From Anaerolineae bacterium (lineage in GTDB: Bacteria > Chloroflexota > Anaerolineae > JAAYZQ01): a stretch of DNA of 5,883 nucleotides. Positions within the stretch are counted from its first letter, which is position 1, and every line of letters starts with the position of its first letter. A program made the translations under genes and the position numbers. The notes beneath the pieces are model-generated. The model did not search any database. It saw nothing but the letters and a program-made list of their open reading frames with translations, and was not told where the DNA came from. Positions 3-5,883 of the stretch are shown here, piece after piece. The DNA lies in the NCBI GenBank assembly GCA_016926595.1, contig JAFGOG010000110.1, positions 1 to 5,883 of the forward strand. Reading direction: 5' to 3'.

Positions 3-359
3 GAGGCCATCGCCGATCCGTCGAGCCTGCGCAGCGCCTTTACCACCAACAGCGCCTACGCCGGCCTCAAGGCCCCGGTGCGCGAGGCGGCTCCCGGGCA
101 GTTCATCCCCGACTTTGCCTCGCGCTACCTGGCCGAGGACGTGCCTTTCGGCCTGGCCGCCAGCCGGGCCATCGGCCGCCTGGCCGGGGTGGAGACGCCG
201 GTCATGGACCAGGTCATCGCCTGGGCCGGCGAGCGGTTGGGGTACGACTACCTGGGCCGCGACGCCGGCGAGGCGCGCATCCCGCAAAAGCATGGTTTCA
301 GCACCTTGGAGCAGTTGATCGCATTTGCAATGGAAAGAGGACAAGAGCAAGATTCATAA
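3..359 (+). CDS. Octopine/nopaline (opine) dehydrogenase family protein, C-terminal part (5' end outside window)
   Basis: The frame is open from the window edge to TAA at 357-359 and shows the last 118 residues. Visible blocks are TTNSAYAGLKAPV (residues 14-26), PDFASRYLAEDVPFGL (36-51), GRLAGVETPVMDQVIAWA (58-75) and a G-Y-D-Y-L tail. The order of NAYAG-like motif, R-Y-x-x-E-D-V-P-F-G-L, GV-x-TP and GxDY is what I know from the C-terminal helical domain of opine dehydrogenases. This family reductively condenses an alpha-keto acid with an amino acid, or runs in reverse, using NAD(P)H in the cytoplasm. The nucleotide-binding Rossmann half and the catalytic histidine would lie upstream and cannot be checked. 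The stop overlaps the ribosome-binding site of the next gene, so the two are very likely co-translated. The substrate is unknown, and some family members act on simpler 2-keto or 2-amino acids. Family call fairly sure; exact activity not. Confidence 0.82.
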   Translation, partial: EAIADPSSLRSAFTTNSAYAGLKAPVREAAPGQFIPDFASRYLAEDVPFGLAASRAIGRLAGVETPVMDQVIAWAGERLGYDYLGRDAGEARIPQKHGFSTLEQLIAFAMERGQEQDS

Positions 360-363
360 GGAG
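358..363 (+). promoter_or_regulatory. Shine-Dalgarno site AAGGAG deciding the GTG start at 370
   Basis: AAGGAG lies 6 bases before GTG 370-372 and uses the last two bases of the upstream TAA stop. This is a near-ideal ribosome-binding site, and it favours GTG 370 over the in-frame TTG at 325, which lies inside the upstream gene and has only a poor purine stretch before it. The overlap with the stop codon suggests that ribosomes finishing the dehydrogenase reinitiate on the fusion gene. Confidence 0.85.
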
Positions 364-369
364 AAGGTT

Positions 370-3300
370 GTGAACAAACAGGCACAAACAGAAACCAAAA
401 AGCGCCGCGTGCTGGCCGGTTCTATCGGCGATTGCGTCCACTCGCTGGGCGTCGAGTCGTTCGCCGAGTGGATGGAGGACCGGGGCGAGGGGTACATGGC
501 GGTCAAACTGGGTCCGGCCGTCCCCATCGAGGACGTGGTCAACAAGATCCGCGAGTCGCGGCCCGAAGTGGTGGCCATCTCCATGCGCCTGGGCGACCTG
601 CACGTGGATAAACTGATCGGCGAATTCATTGAAAAGACGGCCCAACACCGCTTGCTGCCCCGCGAGAGCGGCATCCGCTACGCTTTTGGCGGTTTGCGCC
701 CGGCGGCCAACCTGGTGCGGGCCATGACCGGCCTGCCGTTACAGGAGGACAAGTTCTCGCCGACCGCAAGTCGCCACTACGACCTGGACGAAATCGCCGA
801 GAACTATGGCGACATCGATGCCTTCCAGGGATTCTTTGCCCTGGTGGTCGACGACTATATCACCATGGAAGAGCTGGAAGCGTTCGCCCTGGGCGAGTCG
901 ATCAGCCAGCAGGCCGAGGCGACCGAGTGGTCCAACGATCTGCTGGAGCGCATCGGCCAGGTGCGCAAGCTGGAAAACCGGCCCATCCTCCGCGCCCACA
1001 TCGGCATCGCCGCCGACACGATCGAGCCAACGGTCGAGGCGGTCGAGATGCTGGCCGAATCGGAATGCCTCGAGATCATCTCGCTGGCCCCCGACCAGCC
1101 TTCGCAGGAGTACCTGGCCAAGTTCATCCGCGGTGAGGAGGACCCCAGCAAATACCTGAAAGGCCAGGGTGGCGTGCCGATCCGCACCATGGAGGATCTG
1201 CGGCGGCTCAAAGCGGCCACCCGGCGGGGCAACTATCCCATGACCCGCATCTATTCCGGCACCGACGAGCTGGTGGAGCTGGCCAAGCTATTCGAGGAAT
1301 CGTTCCGCATGCCCTTCCCGGCCGTGCCCATCTTTTTCTACAACGAGCTCGACGGCCGTGGCCCCATCTCCGTACGCGGCGGTTTTGACGAGCACTTTGA
1401 AGTAATGCGCTGGTGGGCGGCCCGCGACAAGGCGGTTGAGATCAACGACCCGCACCAGTGGCAGTTGCGCAACAGCACAGACGACCTGTTGGTCACCGAT
1501 CACGTCCTGGCCGGCGTCATAGCCCTGAAAATGGGCATCCGCAAGTACGTCATGCAGATGATGTACGATCTGCCCCCGGGCACCTCGGGCCTCAACGACC
1601 TGGCCAAGTTCCAGGCGGCCTACGAGCTGCTCCAGCCTCTGACCCAGCACTGGGACTTTAACATCATCAAAGAGACGCGTGGCGGCCTGTCCGACTTTCC
1701 GCCCAACCTGGACAGGGCCAAGGGCCATCTGTCCGTCTCCACCTACTGGCAGATGTACATGGAGCCGGACATCGTCCATGTCGTCAGCTTTTCAGAGGCC
1801 CATCACGAAGCCAAAGCCCAGGACGTGGTCGAGAGCTGCGACATCGTCAAGCAGACGATCGAGGACTTTAACCGCGACGACAAGCCCGACATCTGGCAGG
1901 ATCCGCGGTTGCTGGGCCGAAAGCGCAGCCTAAAGCTGGGAGCGATGTACAACCTGTTGCACCTGGCCCTGCTGGGCGGCTATGAGGGGCCGGTCACCCT
2001 GGACAGCTTTTTCGAATGGGCTGTTCGCCCGGAGGAGGCCAGCCAGCGCGATCATCGAAAACGGTGGGACCGCAATTACACGACGATGCTCCTCAGCTTT
2101 GTCGACGAGGCCAACTATCCCACCGGGCAGTGCGGCATGGTCAGCGCCGACACGCTGGACCTGGCCCTGCAAGTAGGGCTGCTCCAGGCGCCGCAGATCA
2201 CCGTGCTCGACAGGCGCTACGAAATGGTAGGCAAGTGCCGGACCAAGATCCTGGACGGCGGCTGCGTGATCGACGAGTTCAACGGGGTCAAAGTGGCCGA
2301 CGAGATCGAGCGGGTGGATCGCGTCCGGGAGCGGAGCCCCTGGTTCTTTGACAAAAACCTCAACCAGGCGGACGAAGATCTGGGCATCACCGAGACCGCC
2401 GAGGCCATGGATGAGAGCATCGTCGTTCAGGCGCGAAAACAGGTCGGCATCCGCAGCGAGGCCGGGCTGGACAAGCTGCAGGTCCTGGTCGTCGACTTTG
2501 GCAGCACCTTCTCCAAGATCGGCGCCTTTGACACGGCGACCGAGGAGTTCAGCCTGCGTTACGTGCCGACCGTCGTAGAGGACCTGCGCGTGTCGCTGGC
2601 AGACGGGCTTGGCGTCCTGGACGAGTGCCGCCAGCGGGGCGATTGGCAGCCGCTGGGCCAGGCGATGGCCCACTTTGACGTCAGGCTGCCCTGCTCCAGC
2701 GCCAAGGGCGGCCTCAAAATGGTAACCGTGTCCATGGTCAAAGAGGAAAGCGGCTTTGCCGCCGACCTGGCCGCCCTCACCGCCGGCGCCAAACTGCTGG
2801 GCAGCTACGATAGCAAGCTCAGTCCGCAGCAGGCGTTGGCCATCTACGAGCAGGATCAACCCGAGATCATCCTCCAGGCCGGCGGTGTGGACCTGGGCGG
2901 CGACACCGAAACCCAACTGCACAACGCCCATCTGCTGGCCATGTACGCCAAAGCAGCCACCTATGCCCGCTACGGCGTGCCGGTGATCTATGCCGGCAAC
3001 CAGGACATCCGGGACGAGATCGAACGGATCTACAAGGCCGAAGGGGTCGATATCCGCATCACCCCCAACGTCATGCCCGAGGTCAACACCTTCCGCATCG
3101 AGGTGGTCAACGAGGCCATCCGCGATCTGTTCCAGACGATCATCATCCGTGGCAAGGGCTTTGACGTGGTCGAAGAGTACATGAGCGCCCCATTCATCCC
3201 CACGCCGCGAGCGGCCTTTCGTGGTATCAACCTGCTCGCCAAGGGGTACGGCGCCGAGCCCGGTCTGGGCAACATCATGGCCCTGGACATCGGCGGGGCG

Positions 3301-4050
3301 ACGACCGACTTTTACTCCAACGTCGGCGACAACCCCCTGTACAGCTACGAGGGCGACGATCCGCGCCGCAAGGTCAAGCGTACCATCCTCAAGACCCCCA
3401 ACACCCCCCTGGCCTATCGCCGCGTGGAGGGCAAGTACGGTCTGGCCTACGACGCCGAGAACATCAAAGAGCTGCGACGCTTCCAGAGCGGCGTCATGAA
3501 GCGCGATCTGGAAGAGTTCCTGCTGGCCGAATATCCCACCTTCCGGCCGGCCGGCGACACCCTGGGCGCCTTTGTGCGTCAAGTGGACGGCCGCCTCGAT
3601 CTCGATCTGGACGGCTACCTGACCTGGCTGTCGGCCAATCCCCACGTCCTGCCTGCCGGCGACGAAGAAAACGCCATCCGCTCCCTGCTGGCCAGGGAGA
3701 TCATGGCCGCCACTACCGGGCGGAATCTCGGCTATGTCAAAGAGACCGACACCTACTTTTTGCAGTACGGGGTCAATTTTCTGAACCAACCCTGCACCAC
3801 CCTGCTGATCGGCGGCACCATCTACCACAAATGCAAGGATGGTTGCCACTTCAACCGTGACCTGCAGCTCATCGCCGCCGGCACGCAGTACAACGAGGAT
3901 GAATCGTGGCTCCTCCGCCCGCGCGGCCCGATCCTGCTGGATGCAGCCTACATGGTGTCGGTCGTCGGCGGGCTCTACGGGCGTATCGACCCAGAGCGGG
4001 CCCTGCGGATGCTCAAGCGCCGCCTGGTCCCCTTGGAGACAACAGCCTGA
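370..4050 (+). CDS. Fused cobalamin-binding domain / mutase-like TIM barrel / GlmL-type reactivating ATPase
   Basis: This 1226-residue protein starts at GTG 370. Residues 12-125 form a B12-binding Rossmann domain: G-D-C-V-H-S-L-G at 20-27 with H24 as likely lower cobalt ligand, S-M-R-L at 71-74 and F-G-G-L at 106-109. Residues about 203-530 resemble the TIM barrel of B12 mutases such as GlmE, with I-N-D-P-H-Q-W at 358-364 and P-P-G-T-S at 402-406. Residues 531-700 are unassigned. Residues 702-1226 match GlmL/MutL, the ASKHA ATPase associated with glutamate mutase: D-F-G-S-T at 709-713, C-S-S-x-x-G-G at 775-781, A-G-G-V-D at 837-841, N-V-M-P-E at 900-904, D-I-G-G-A-T-T-D at 973-980 and I-G-G at 1147-1149. 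The expected role is a cytoplasmic adenosylcobalamin-dependent isomerase carrying its own ATP-driven cofactor-exchange chaperone. GlmS, GlmE and GlmL are normally separate proteins, GlmL being about 460 residues. No PLP-binding lysine motif is evident, which argues mildly against an aminomutase. The substrate is unknown; coupling to the upstream opine-dehydrogenase gene points to amino-acid metabolism (inference). Confidence 0.85.
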   Translation: MNKQAQTETKKRRVLAGSIGDCVHSLGVESFAEWMEDRGEGYMAVKLGPAVPIEDVVNKIRESRPEVVAISMRLGDLHVDKLIGEFIEKTAQHRLLPRESGIRYAFGGLRPAANLVRAMTGLPLQEDKFSPTASRHYDLDEIAENYGDIDAFQGFFALVVDDYITMEELEAFALGESISQQAEATEWSNDLLERIGQVRKLENRPILRAHIGIAADTIEPTVEAVEMLAESECLEIISLAPDQPSQEYLAKFIRGEEDPSKYLKGQGGVPIRTMEDLRRLKAATRRGNYPMTRIYSGTDELVELAKLFEESFRMPFPAVPIFFYNELDGRGPISVRGGFDEHFEVMRWWAARDKAVEINDPHQWQLRNSTDDLLVTDHVLAGVIALKMGIRKYVMQMMYDLPPGTSGLNDLAKFQAAYELLQPLTQHWDFNIIKETRGGLSDFPPNLDRAKGHLSVSTYWQMYMEPDIVHVVSFSEAHHEAKAQDVVESCDIVKQTIEDFNRDDKPDIWQDPRLLGRKRSLKLGAMYNLLHLALLGGYEGPVTLDSFFEWAVRPEEASQRDHRKRWDRNYTTMLLSFVDEANYPTGQCGMVSADTLDLALQVGLLQAPQITVLDRRYEMVGKCRTKILDGGCVIDEFNGVKVADEIERVDRVRERSPWFFDKNLNQADEDLGITETAEAMDESIVVQARKQVGIRSEAGLDKLQVLVVDFGSTFSKIGAFDTATEEFSLRYVPTVVEDLRVSLADGLGVLDECRQRGDWQPLGQAMAHFDVRLPCSSAKGGLKMVTVSMVKEESGFAADLAALTAGAKLLGSYDSKLSPQQALAIYEQDQPEIILQAGGVDLGGDTETQLHNAHLLAMYAKAATYARYGVPVIYAGNQDIRDEIERIYKAEGVDIRITPNVMPEVNTFRIEVVNEAIRDLFQTIIIRGKGFDVVEEYMSAPFIPTPRAAFRGINLLAKGYGAEPGLGNIMALDIGGATTDFYSNVGDNPLYSYEGDDPRRKVKRTILKTPNTPLAYRRVEGKYGLAYDAENIKELRRFQSGVMKRDLEEFLLAEYPTFRPAGDTLGAFVRQVDGRLDLDLDGYLTWLSANPHVLPAGDEENAIRSLLAREIMAATTGRNLGYVKETDTYFLQYGVNFLNQPCTTLLIGGTIYHKCKDGCHFNRDLQLIAAGTQYNEDESWLLRPRGPILLDAAYMVSVVGGLYGRIDPERALRMLKRRLVPLETTA

Positions 4051-4137: not shown

Positions 4138-4569
4138 ATGAAAAAAGTCTTTGCCTACATCACCCACGCCGGCCGGCTGCTCCTGTTTCGCCACACCGAT
4201 TACCCCGAGGCCGGCATCCAGGTCCCGGCCGGCACCGTCGCCGGCGGCGAGCAGCCAGAGGCGGCGGTGCTGCGCGAGGCGTTCGAGGAGACCGGCCTCG
4301 CCAACCTGGAGCTGGACCTGCTCCTGGGGGAGACGGTTTGCGACGGGTCGGACCTGGGTCTAGACCAGGTTCACCACCGCTATTACTATCACCTGCGCTG
4401 CACCGGCGATCCACCCCAGACCTGGCGCCACTGGGAGTGCGACGCCAGCGACGGCAGCCCGCCCATCGAGTTTGAGCTTTTCTGGGCGCCTCTGCCCGGC
4501 GGCCTGCCACAGCTCCTGCCCGCCCACGCCGCGATGCTGCCGCGGCTGCTGGCGCGGCTGGGGCTGTGA
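4138..4569 (+). CDS. Nudix hydrolase
   Basis: This is a 143-residue protein, the usual size for a single-domain Nudix enzyme. The complete Nudix box runs from G32 to L54 and fits GX5EX7REUXEEXGU exactly: G32, E38, R46-E47, E50-E51, T52, G53, L54. E47, E50 and E51 are the expected Mg2+ ligands. Such enzymes cleave a nucleoside diphosphate linked to another moiety; which one cannot be told here. The N-terminal strand K-K-V-F-A-Y-I-T-H followed by L-L-L-F-R-H is typical of the fold. ATG 4138 is preceded by GGAG at 4125-4128 with a 9-base spacer. The 87-base gap and palindrome separate it from the fusion gene, and I see no convincing promoter of its own, so it may depend on read-through. A terminator-like hairpin follows 6 bases after the stop. 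There is no evident functional link to the B12 gene. Confidence 0.92.
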   Translation: MKKVFAYITHAGRLLLFRHTDYPEAGIQVPAGTVAGGEQPEAAVLREAFEETGLANLELDLLLGETVCDGSDLGLDQVHHRYYYHLRCTGDPPQTWRHWECDASDGSPPIEFELFWAPLPGGLPQLLPAHAAMLPRLLARLGL

Positions 4570-4681: not shown

Positions 4682-5883
4682 ATGAACGCTCAAGACAGTA
4701 AAACACGGCTGTTGTGGCTGGCCCTGCCCGTGGCAGCCTTTGTCCTGCTGGCCGGGCTGGTGGGCCGGCTACCGGCCAGCCAGGCGCTCAGCCCGTCCGC
4801 CGCCGGAGTGACCAAGACGGTCGATCCGGCGTCGATCCTGCCCGGCCAGATACCTGGACCACTGTACACCGTCACCTTCTCCAACCCGGCCACCACCACC
4901 CTGATCCTCGACTGGATCACCGATACGCTGCCCGCCGACTTTGTCTTTGCCGGCATGGACCCGTCAAGTGGCTGGGATGAGGAACCGGTCGACACAACCG
5001 GGCCCGACATCGTCTGGCAGGGGCCGATCACCGTCCCGGCCACCGGCGCCCTGTCCCTTATCTACGTCGTCGACGTTCCTCTCGTCGTCCCACCTAGCTC
5101 CGTCCCCTACACCAACACCGTCGTCGCCCGCGCTGGCGACACCCTCATCGGCCCGGCCACCGCCCGCCTGTGGGTCGGCGCCCCCGACTTGAGTGTGACC
5201 AAGACCGCCGCTCCTACCCGCCTGCTGCCCGGCCAGCCGGTCGATTACACCGTCACCTTTGCCAACAGCGGCGAGCTGACCGGCACCCTGACGGTCATCA
5301 GCGACACCCTCGACCCATCCTTGACCTTCGTCGAAATGCTGCCCGGCAGCGACATCACCGGGCCAGTAGTCAGCGGCACCCTCCTCTATTGGACCGGACC
5401 GTTCACCCTACCCGCCTCCACCGACCTGGTGCTCAAATACCAGGCCGACACCTCCACCGACCCCGGCTGGCGCTGGCCGTGCAACGAGGTCGCCGCCCCC
5501 GCCGGCGGTGAGCTGGTCGGACCGGCCCAGGCCTGCGTCGAGGTCGGACCGGAAAAGGCGTTCCTCTACTTGCCGGTCATCTTCAACAACGTCCGCTGGC
5601 CGCAGTTCACCATCGCCAAGAGCGTCACCCCCACCAAAGTTGACACCGCGCCCGGCCAGGTGGTGACCTACACCGTCACCATCGCCAACGTGGGCGACGA
5701 GCCGGGCGCGCTGGCGGCGGTGGTCGATACCCTGCCGGCCGGGTTCACCTACTTGGACATGGCCCAAGGCAGCGACGTCACCGCCGACCCGGACGCCACG
5801 ACCGGCCTGATCCGCTGGGCCGGCCCGTTCGACGTGGCCGGCGGCGGGCAGTTGCGGCTGATCTACAAGGTGGCGCCCAGCCA
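4682..5883 (+). CDS. Secreted DUF11-repeat (conserved repeat domain) surface protein, N-terminal part (3' end outside window)
   Basis: The frame is open for 400 residues and runs off the window. Residues 1-35 are a signal peptide: polar, charged start with K7 and R9, hydrophobic stretch L10 to V27, and a probable signal-peptidase site after P-A-S-Q-A (35). Three DUF11-type beta-sandwich repeats follow at about 41-165, 168-287 and 308-400+. Each has the pattern V-T-K-T or A-K-S-V, P-G-Q, then Y-T-V-T-[FI]-[SA]-N, D-T-L, W-x-G-P and a later L-x-[LI]-x-Y. The Y-T-V-T block recurs after 127 and then 141 residues; the extra length comes from an insertion with F-L-Y-L-P-V-I-F-N-N (294-303) between repeats 2 and 3. 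C267 and C285 in repeat 2 may form a disulfide. Such proteins are usually large, exported structural or adhesive stalks; the anchoring end is not in the window. It has its own strong promoter, so it is probably independent of the upstream genes. No enzymatic role is visible. Confidence 0.85.
   Translation, partial: MNAQDSKTRLLWLALPVAAFVLLAGLVGRLPASQALSPSAAGVTKTVDPASILPGQIPGPLYTVTFSNPATTTLILDWITDTLPADFVFAGMDPSSGWDEEPVDTTGPDIVWQGPITVPATGALSLIYVVDVPLVVPPSSVPYTNTVVARAGDTLIGPATARLWVGAPDLSVTKTAAPTRLLPGQPVDYTVTFANSGELTGTLTVISDTLDPSLTFVEMLPGSDITGPVVSGTLLYWTGPFTLPASTDLVLKYQADTSTDPGWRWPCNEVAAPAGGELVGPAQACVEVGPEKAFLYLPVIFNNVRWPQFTIAKSVTPTKVDTAPGQVVTYTVTIANVGDEPGALAAVVDTLPAGFTYLDMAQGSDVTADPDATTGLIRWAGPFDVAGGGQLRLIYKVAPS

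Follow-up and report, generated by a model that had tools for sequence, protein, structure and literature searches.

Glutamate mutase (GlmS-GlmE with GlmL) combines an adenosylcobalamin (AdoCbl) mutase barrel, a B12 domain and a MutL ATPase, which are distributed over three proteins, and MutL/GlmL acts as the chaperone that reactivates the enzyme (PMC4682846, in excerpt). In IcmF an AdoCbl mutase and its own nucleotide-driven cofactor chaperone, a G-protein, occupy one chain that acts on a coenzyme A (CoA) substrate (PMC10481361, in excerpt). A further point of comparison is provided by the aminomutases OraSE and KamDE, which carry a lysine for pyridoxal phosphate (PLP). The subject of this report is a gene in a 5,883-nucleotide stretch of DNA (the window) from an Anaerolineae bacterium of the Chloroflexota (assembly GCA_016926595.1, contig JAFGOG010000110.1). 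Its product carries the three parts common to the glutamate mutase system in one chain; as in IcmF, mutase and chaperone are joined, but the chaperone is an ASKHA ATPase at the C-terminus. The barrel fold is shared with OraSE and KamDE, whereas the PLP lysine is absent. The protein is probably a self-maintaining, PLP-free AdoCbl mutase, coupled to an enzyme of the opine-dehydrogenase fold that is linked to nicotinamide adenine dinucleotide (NAD).

The domains, fold, conservation, pairing and apparent exchange with an unfused module that are described below were all computed here. Pfam searches with the window protein returned a nearly complete MutL domain (PF13941, 253 bits against a cut-off of 27, residues 705-1218) and a B12-binding match near the N-terminus, with no recognisable match for the residues between the two. 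When NCBIfam was searched as well, the chain still gave MutL and B12-binding matches only, and no G-protein chaperone domain. The phosphate motif D709-F-G-S-T713 of the ATPase is invariant in the 49 rows of the alignment of fused proteins, and D973-I-G-G-A-T-T-D980 is invariant save I974 and A977. In the B12 domain H24 and G27 are present in 48 of the 49 fused rows (the remaining row is gapped) and in all 49 rows of unfused relatives; S71/R73 and the G107-G108 loops are further features of this domain, as judged from the model and from conservation.

The fold of the middle region had been set beforehand as a test of the preliminary description, which proposed the layout of B12 domain, TIM barrel and MutL/ASKHA ATPase from the letters of the window. 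In an AlphaFold2 model of the mutase part, AdoCbl mutases fill Foldseek ranks 1-12 and VIA ranks 1-22; the middle region groups with GlmE, ornithine aminomutase and methylmalonyl-CoA mutase, and GlmE is the top Foldseek match, whereas GlmE and OraE are tied in VIA. The full-length model has a predicted local distance difference test (pLDDT) value of 83.6 and a predicted template-modelling (pTM) score of 0.67. Thus, both the domain layout and the assignment of the middle region to the B12-enzyme barrels were borne out. The leading position of the B12 domain had also been put forward as a difference from IcmF, which it probably is not: model residues 9-627 run along IcmF chain residues 24-988, although with a root-mean-square deviation of 22.9 this alignment informs on domain order only. 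We take the order in IcmF to be B12 domain first. In OraE of locus L047, in contrast, the B12 domain is C-terminal.

The one-chain B12 mutase-MutL protein is genuine and conserved. Of the 7995 candidates scored in a protein search, 445 are relatives at E ≤ 1e-3, with 65-100% identity among the 120 matches listed. Scanning species genomes yielded 43 loci (L numbers below), in records named Chloroflexota, Bacillota, Atribacterota, Acetothermia and others, and the family is common in Chloroflexota genomes. An open reading frame (ORF) of at least 1190 residues is present in 35 of the 42 loci carrying a family ORF; the shorter ORFs comprise five at contig ends plus those of L017 and L036. That both halves have relatives encoded as separate neighbouring genes would be expected if an assembly error or chance read-through had joined two genes. 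However, the same fusion recurs in different genomes of several phyla and in one supported clade, so that an artefact, the possibility against which the preliminary description had also set its claim, is refuted by the homologues and has a negligible likelihood. Two loci show the fused gene interrupted: by an in-frame TAA (11798-11800) in L017, a chromosome record, and by a frameshift at about 9080 in L036.

Fusion residues 1-697 were also used to search 199 genomes of one class; most genomes used in this work may be incomplete. Matches were obtained in 71 genomes, of which 14 carry the fusion (in one of them divided between two contigs). Most of the others encode a protein of mostly 540-640 residues without MutL, 36-43% identical over the barrel. 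This unfused branch is large, with at least 7806 matches at E ≤ 1e-3 (of 7999 scored candidates). The C-terminal part of the mutase could be aligned in six of 15 unfused relatives, with gaps, as far as residues 649-655.

The constant partner of the mutase, overlooked in the preliminary description, is the opine dehydrogenase whose 3' end opens the window. An AAGGAG overlapping the stop codon of this gene suggests that translation of the dehydrogenase and of the fusion could be coupled. By tblastn, a homologue lies at 33 of the 43 loci; nine of the ten others have fewer than 200 bases upstream of the gene, and L024 is without a homologue in the stretch examined. The pairing extends to whole genomes. 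All 80 of the mutase-bearing genomes had a PF02317 (Octopine_DH) match above cut-off, as against one of 80 mutase-negative genomes, where the mutase query gave 0/80. The mutase-bearing set consisted of 65 of the 71 mutase-positive genomes of the 199-genome search and 15 reached through the loci of the species-genome scan, leaving out G040, G101, G102, G168, G205 and G206, which hold fragments or weak matches only; the mutase-negative set was 80 other genomes, 20 of them already named as negative in that search, and all 80 were confirmed with the query that had matched the 71. Moreover, of the 67 mutase loci from the 199 genomes (B12-domain-only and fragment rows excluded), 63 have PF02317 on the same strand and no more than 5 kb away, namely 12 of the 14 fused and 51 of the 53 unfused loci. 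Given this genome-wide pairing and proximity, the mutase and its dehydrogenase partner behave like a single functional unit. Indeed, in P0085 (1657 residues) an opine dehydrogenase and the whole mutase-MutL chain are fused in one protein, so the two may act as a single channelled unit, and P0085 is a ready-made test of substrate channelling. The single mutase-negative genome with an opine dehydrogenase above cut-off is G066, on contig C230.

Comparison with the scallop octopine dehydrogenase (OcDH) shows that the linked bacterial partners retain the equivalents of H212, W278, R324 and D329; in the window the partner keeps the Arg and Asp. Of the catalytic His-Asp pair and the NADH-sensing Arg of opine dehydrogenases, the His is found in 31 of 32 ungapped rows of partners linked to fused mutases (the exception is a paralogue in L003) and the Arg and Asp in 34 of 34, while in partners of unfused mutases His and Arg are present in 18 of 18 rows and Asp in 17 of 18. 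Two other positions differ. Scallop Q118 is replaced by Arg in every ungapped linked partner, and at the position of scallop E142, 30 of 31 fused-linked rows have Gln and L014 has Asp, while 11 of the 18 unfused-linked partners keep Glu. In the scallop enzyme E142 contacts the guanidinium group of arginine (PMC2924402, in excerpt), and its replacement, mostly by Gln, makes arginine an unlikely substrate of the fused-linked partners. The homologue of L010 (8698-9882) matches scallop OcDH (3c7a) at E 2e-98; L010 and its relatives are thus bacterial enzymes strikingly near a scallop muscle enzyme, which bears on the origin of the animal octopine dehydrogenase.

In five genomes MutL, two opine dehydrogenases and the mutase are separate genes at the mutase locus, arranged MutL-OcDH-OcDH-mutase in L078. 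Across the importer, racemase-like and GGT genes (L001 3543-8313, L078 1-4610), L001 (fused) and L078 share 95% and 93% DNA identity, which breaks sharply at the end of GGT (L001 8313, L078 4610). Past the break L001 has the dehydrogenase and the fusion, and L078 has MutL, the two dehydrogenases and the unfused mutase; the module proteins are 24-36% identical. On the far side, 88-90% DNA identity resumes directly after the mutase between L001 13800-15356 and L090 (separate genes) 5000-6501. Because one border is seen with L078 and the other with L090, we infer a swap at one site rather than see it whole. The fused and unfused modules probably take each other's place as functional equivalents, in which case MutL would be the mutase's own helper in both forms.

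In the mutase tree the 19 fused mutases lie on one side of a branch with support 100/100, and the five mutases with separate MutL genes fall inside the unfused group. The fused MutL domains likewise form one clade (100/100), whereas the separate MutL proteins group with GlmL (93/94), although for this tree the program warns of long branches. Both trees suggest a single fusion event, distinct from the separate-MutL operons. The suggestion that the chain is an independent solution to the problem solved by IcmF is therefore upheld in part: the fused MutL domains are separated from the MutL proteins that the unfused operons encode as individual genes, in a tree to which the long-branch warnings apply.

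The catalytic half appears to have been foreseen. A B12-dependent family predicted in 2009 from 11 bacteria of four groups has an N-terminal B12-binding domain and a TIM-barrel-like prediction, always adjoins pfam02317, and in several organisms has asparagine synthase and D-Ala-D-Ala ligase nearby (PMC2667541, in excerpt). Here, asparagine synthase genes lie beside L071 and L082 and a D-Ala-D-Ala-ligase-like gene lies in L037, and since these neighbours recur, that family, compared by description rather than by sequence, very likely corresponds to the unfused relatives. The words MutL, fusion and chaperone each have no occurrence in the main text of that paper, and a literature search outside whose coverage most subscription journals fall found no description of a MutL fusion. 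The catalytic half is therefore not wholly new to the literature.

From these data the following mechanism can be proposed. The N-terminal Rossmann domain would hold AdoCbl base-off via His24, and the TIM barrel would take a multiply charged, amino-acid-type substrate, whose binding would trigger Co-C homolysis and a 1,2-rearrangement without PLP. The C-terminal MutL domain would spend ATP on opening the mutase and exchanging damaged cobalamin for fresh AdoCbl, the role that GlmL has as a separate protein. The neighbouring opine-dehydrogenase-fold enzyme, acting either ahead of the rearrangement or after it, would use NAD to make or break a C-N bond. The module often sits in an operon whose products would take up peptide-like compounds or free carboxylates and cleave off gamma-glutamyl or acyl groups. 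We infer the cofactor, the ATP-driven exchange, the order of the reactions and the substrate of the fusion protein. With regard to the cofactor, the fusion gene of L043 overlaps at its 3' end with a gene for an ATP:corrinoid adenosyltransferase, and the glmS-glmL-glmE-lyase cluster of Peptoclostridium also holds such a gene; this context points to AdoCbl rather than methyl-B12.

AdoCbl mutases are few, each with a distinct radical reaction, and that of the present mutase may be new. A tenable but tentative proposal is a new AdoCbl radical reaction in which a PLP-free mutase with a built-in repair ATPase, an ASKHA counterpart of IcmF, rearranges an amino acid or opine-type secondary amine, and the opine-dehydrogenase-fold enzyme completes the breakdown with NAD. 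A one-chain mutase-MutL protein would also open MutL-type reactivation to structural study with no need to put together a transient complex, an advantage that IcmF offered for G-protein chaperones.

Several observations weigh against this account of a self-maintaining AdoCbl mutase. The B12-binding match (PF02310, residues 13-74) scores 28.9 bits against a cut-off of 32.1, and in the fused clade the acidic residue of the DxHxxG motif is shifted to a neighbouring, variable position, occupied in the 49 rows by D (23), K (10), P (7), A (3), E (3), N (1) or a gap (2), so that the strict spacing with Asp is not found. By sequence, the B12 domain matches methyltransferase corrinoid proteins best (7xcn, E 2.1e-5), and no cobalamin riboswitch was detected in the window and 14 loci searched. 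By hhalign, the likeness to GlmE (probability 21%) and OraE (43%) is weak; with a single GlmE sequence no alignment of use was obtained, the fused family alone gave a weak alignment, and the fused and unfused families together gave a longer one, still weak. The active-site mapping therefore stands on the fold, the strand order and this weak alignment. A MutL gene is found at the mutase locus in only five of 52 unfused genomes, and MutL may therefore not be needed by all of these mutases; some MutL scores above cut-off in 39 of the 52, mostly a longer type elsewhere in the genome. Finally, the substrate assignment is soft because neighbour genes vary between loci, and D-glutamate cyclase occurs in six of 80 genomes, adjacent to the mutase in two (L043, L082).

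The gene for the longer MutL-like protein of Anaerolineae (about 580-640 residues) belongs to a conserved cluster that lies apart from the B12 mutase (L055-L063); in the one cluster tested, that of L060, there was no Pfam match except MutL itself. The protein was weighed as a possible reactivase of the unfused mutases; its gene does not lie beside theirs, and no link is claimed.

Three other chemistries have to be weighed. The chain could be glutamate mutase itself, with GlmS, GlmE and GlmL merged and 3-methylaspartate as the product. The first place of GlmE in Foldseek would agree with this, as would GlmL being the best scorer among NCBIfam models for the MutL domain, the glutamate-related neighbours (glutamate 2,3-aminomutase in L011, GGT, gamma-glutamyl-hydrolase-like C26) and the name 'glutamate mutase L' that NCBI gives to several of the proteins; 'cobalamin B12-binding domain-containing protein' is the other label met in named records. 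However, the NCBIfam scores of the window protein fall below cut-off: 255 bits against 475 for the GlmL equivalog, 187 against 204 for the GlmL family TIGR01319 and 152 against 600 for Or-4. The constant partner is an opine dehydrogenase rather than methylaspartate ammonia-lyase; the latter is above cut-off in five of 17 fused-gene genomes (three of these matches are short) and GlmE in one of 17, in genomes that may be incomplete, and the lyase was not seen among the neighbour genes identified from scans of representatives. The MR_MLE genes of L043 and L023 have L-Ala-D/L-Glu epimerase and cis-3-hydroxy-L-proline dehydratase as best models, both below cut-off. The glutamate-binding residues of GlmE, which we take to be the arginine claw Arg66, Arg100 and Arg149 and the base Glu171, fall in the weak alignment on His210, Ser245/Gln246, Tyr295 and Val/Ala. 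Their apparent replacement in the fused family is suggestive and lends support to the caution of the preliminary description that glutamate is not a safe substrate; glutamate mutase activity is, on balance, unlikely. In the same alignment R208, R293, R330, R367 and R437 are retained in both fused and unfused forms, and E476, which does not vary in 97 rows, is placed opposite the Glu of the 'EA' motif in GlmE, presumably Glu330. In GlmE, Glu330 contacts the adenosyl ribose (PMC3958899, in excerpt), and the correspondence counts in favour of the AdoCbl mutase.

An aminomutase of the OraE/KamDE type with rearranged domain order would share the barrel, and a MutL-type gene follows OraE in L047 and L064. 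In such enzymes the Lys 11 residues past the axial His binds PLP (PMC3958899, in excerpt), and it is present in OraE (L047) and KamE (L046). At this position Met or Leu is found in 47 of 48 fused rows (one gapped) and Ala in 49 of 49 unfused rows, so that the lysine occurs in none of 97 rows, one gapped, and PLP-dependent aminomutase chemistry is very improbable. The corrinoid matches of the B12 domain noted above, a fold match to the cobalamin-binding protein 4jgi and MTTB-family genes near three of the 43 loci (Pfam was run on one of the three) would fit a corrinoid methyltransferase with MutL as corrinoid activator; the middle region models among the AdoCbl mutases, and a methyltransferase is a slender prospect. 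The self-maintaining AdoCbl mutase is thus the preferred reading.

The features of the window are collected in the table. The longest possible start of the fusion ORF is TTG 325, and nothing ties the Nudix and DUF11-repeat genes to the mutase module.

Table. Genes, domains and sites of the window, with positions counted from its first nucleotide
Feature	Position	Strand	Basis
Opine (octopine) dehydrogenase gene, 3' part, runs off window start	3..359	+	PF02317 E 4.1e-18
Shine-Dalgarno-like AAGGAG overlapping upstream stop codon (357-359)	358..363	+	read from sequence
B12 mutase-MutL fusion gene, 1226 aa, GTG start, stop 4048-4050	370..4050	+	
B12-binding Rossmann domain, residues 12-130	403..759	+	PF02310, model, conservation
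His24, axial-ligand candidate in B12 domain	439-441	+	
AdoCbl-mutase-type TIM barrel, residues 185-530	922..1959	+	AlphaFold2, Foldseek, VIA
Mutase C-terminal part, residues 531-655, helices and beta hairpin	1960..2334	+	model, alignment ends
Linker to MutL, residues 656-704, low-confidence stretch 669-680	2335..2481	+	models
MutL/GlmL-type ASKHA ATPase domain, residues 705-1218	2482..4023	+	PF13941 E 6.4e-75, conservation, full-length model
Nudix hydrolase gene	4138-4569	+	domain search
DUF11-repeat protein gene, runs off window end	4682-5883	+	domain search

Other neighbour families were named via Pfam searches with one or two members per cluster. An oligopeptide-type ABC binding protein is encoded at 23 loci, an RpiR regulator at 16, a C45 acyltransferase/hydrolase at 11, a TAXI-type TRAP importer at six, a gamma-glutamyl-hydrolase-like C26 protein at five (two on the opposite strand) and a D-aminoacylase-like amidohydrolase at four. 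GGT occurs together with an ornithine-racemase-like gene at L001 and L002, a glutamate 2,3-aminomutase gene, over the NCBI cut-off, lies downstream of the fused gene in L011 (14060-15310), and a D-glutamate cyclase gene lies near the fusion in L043, as does the adenosyltransferase gene. Gamma-glutamyl and acyl hydrolases beside a peptide or TAXI importer would be consistent with a substrate resembling glutamate, possibly D-glutamate or a derivative of glutamate, an identification that we hold with little confidence. D-glutamate cyclase was rejected as a general partner on account of its frequency, and is retained as a hint. Mutase-bearing genome G116 has seven D-glutamate-cyclase-like matches, on contigs C7, C8 and C14, three of them consecutive on C8 about 13 kb from the mutase.

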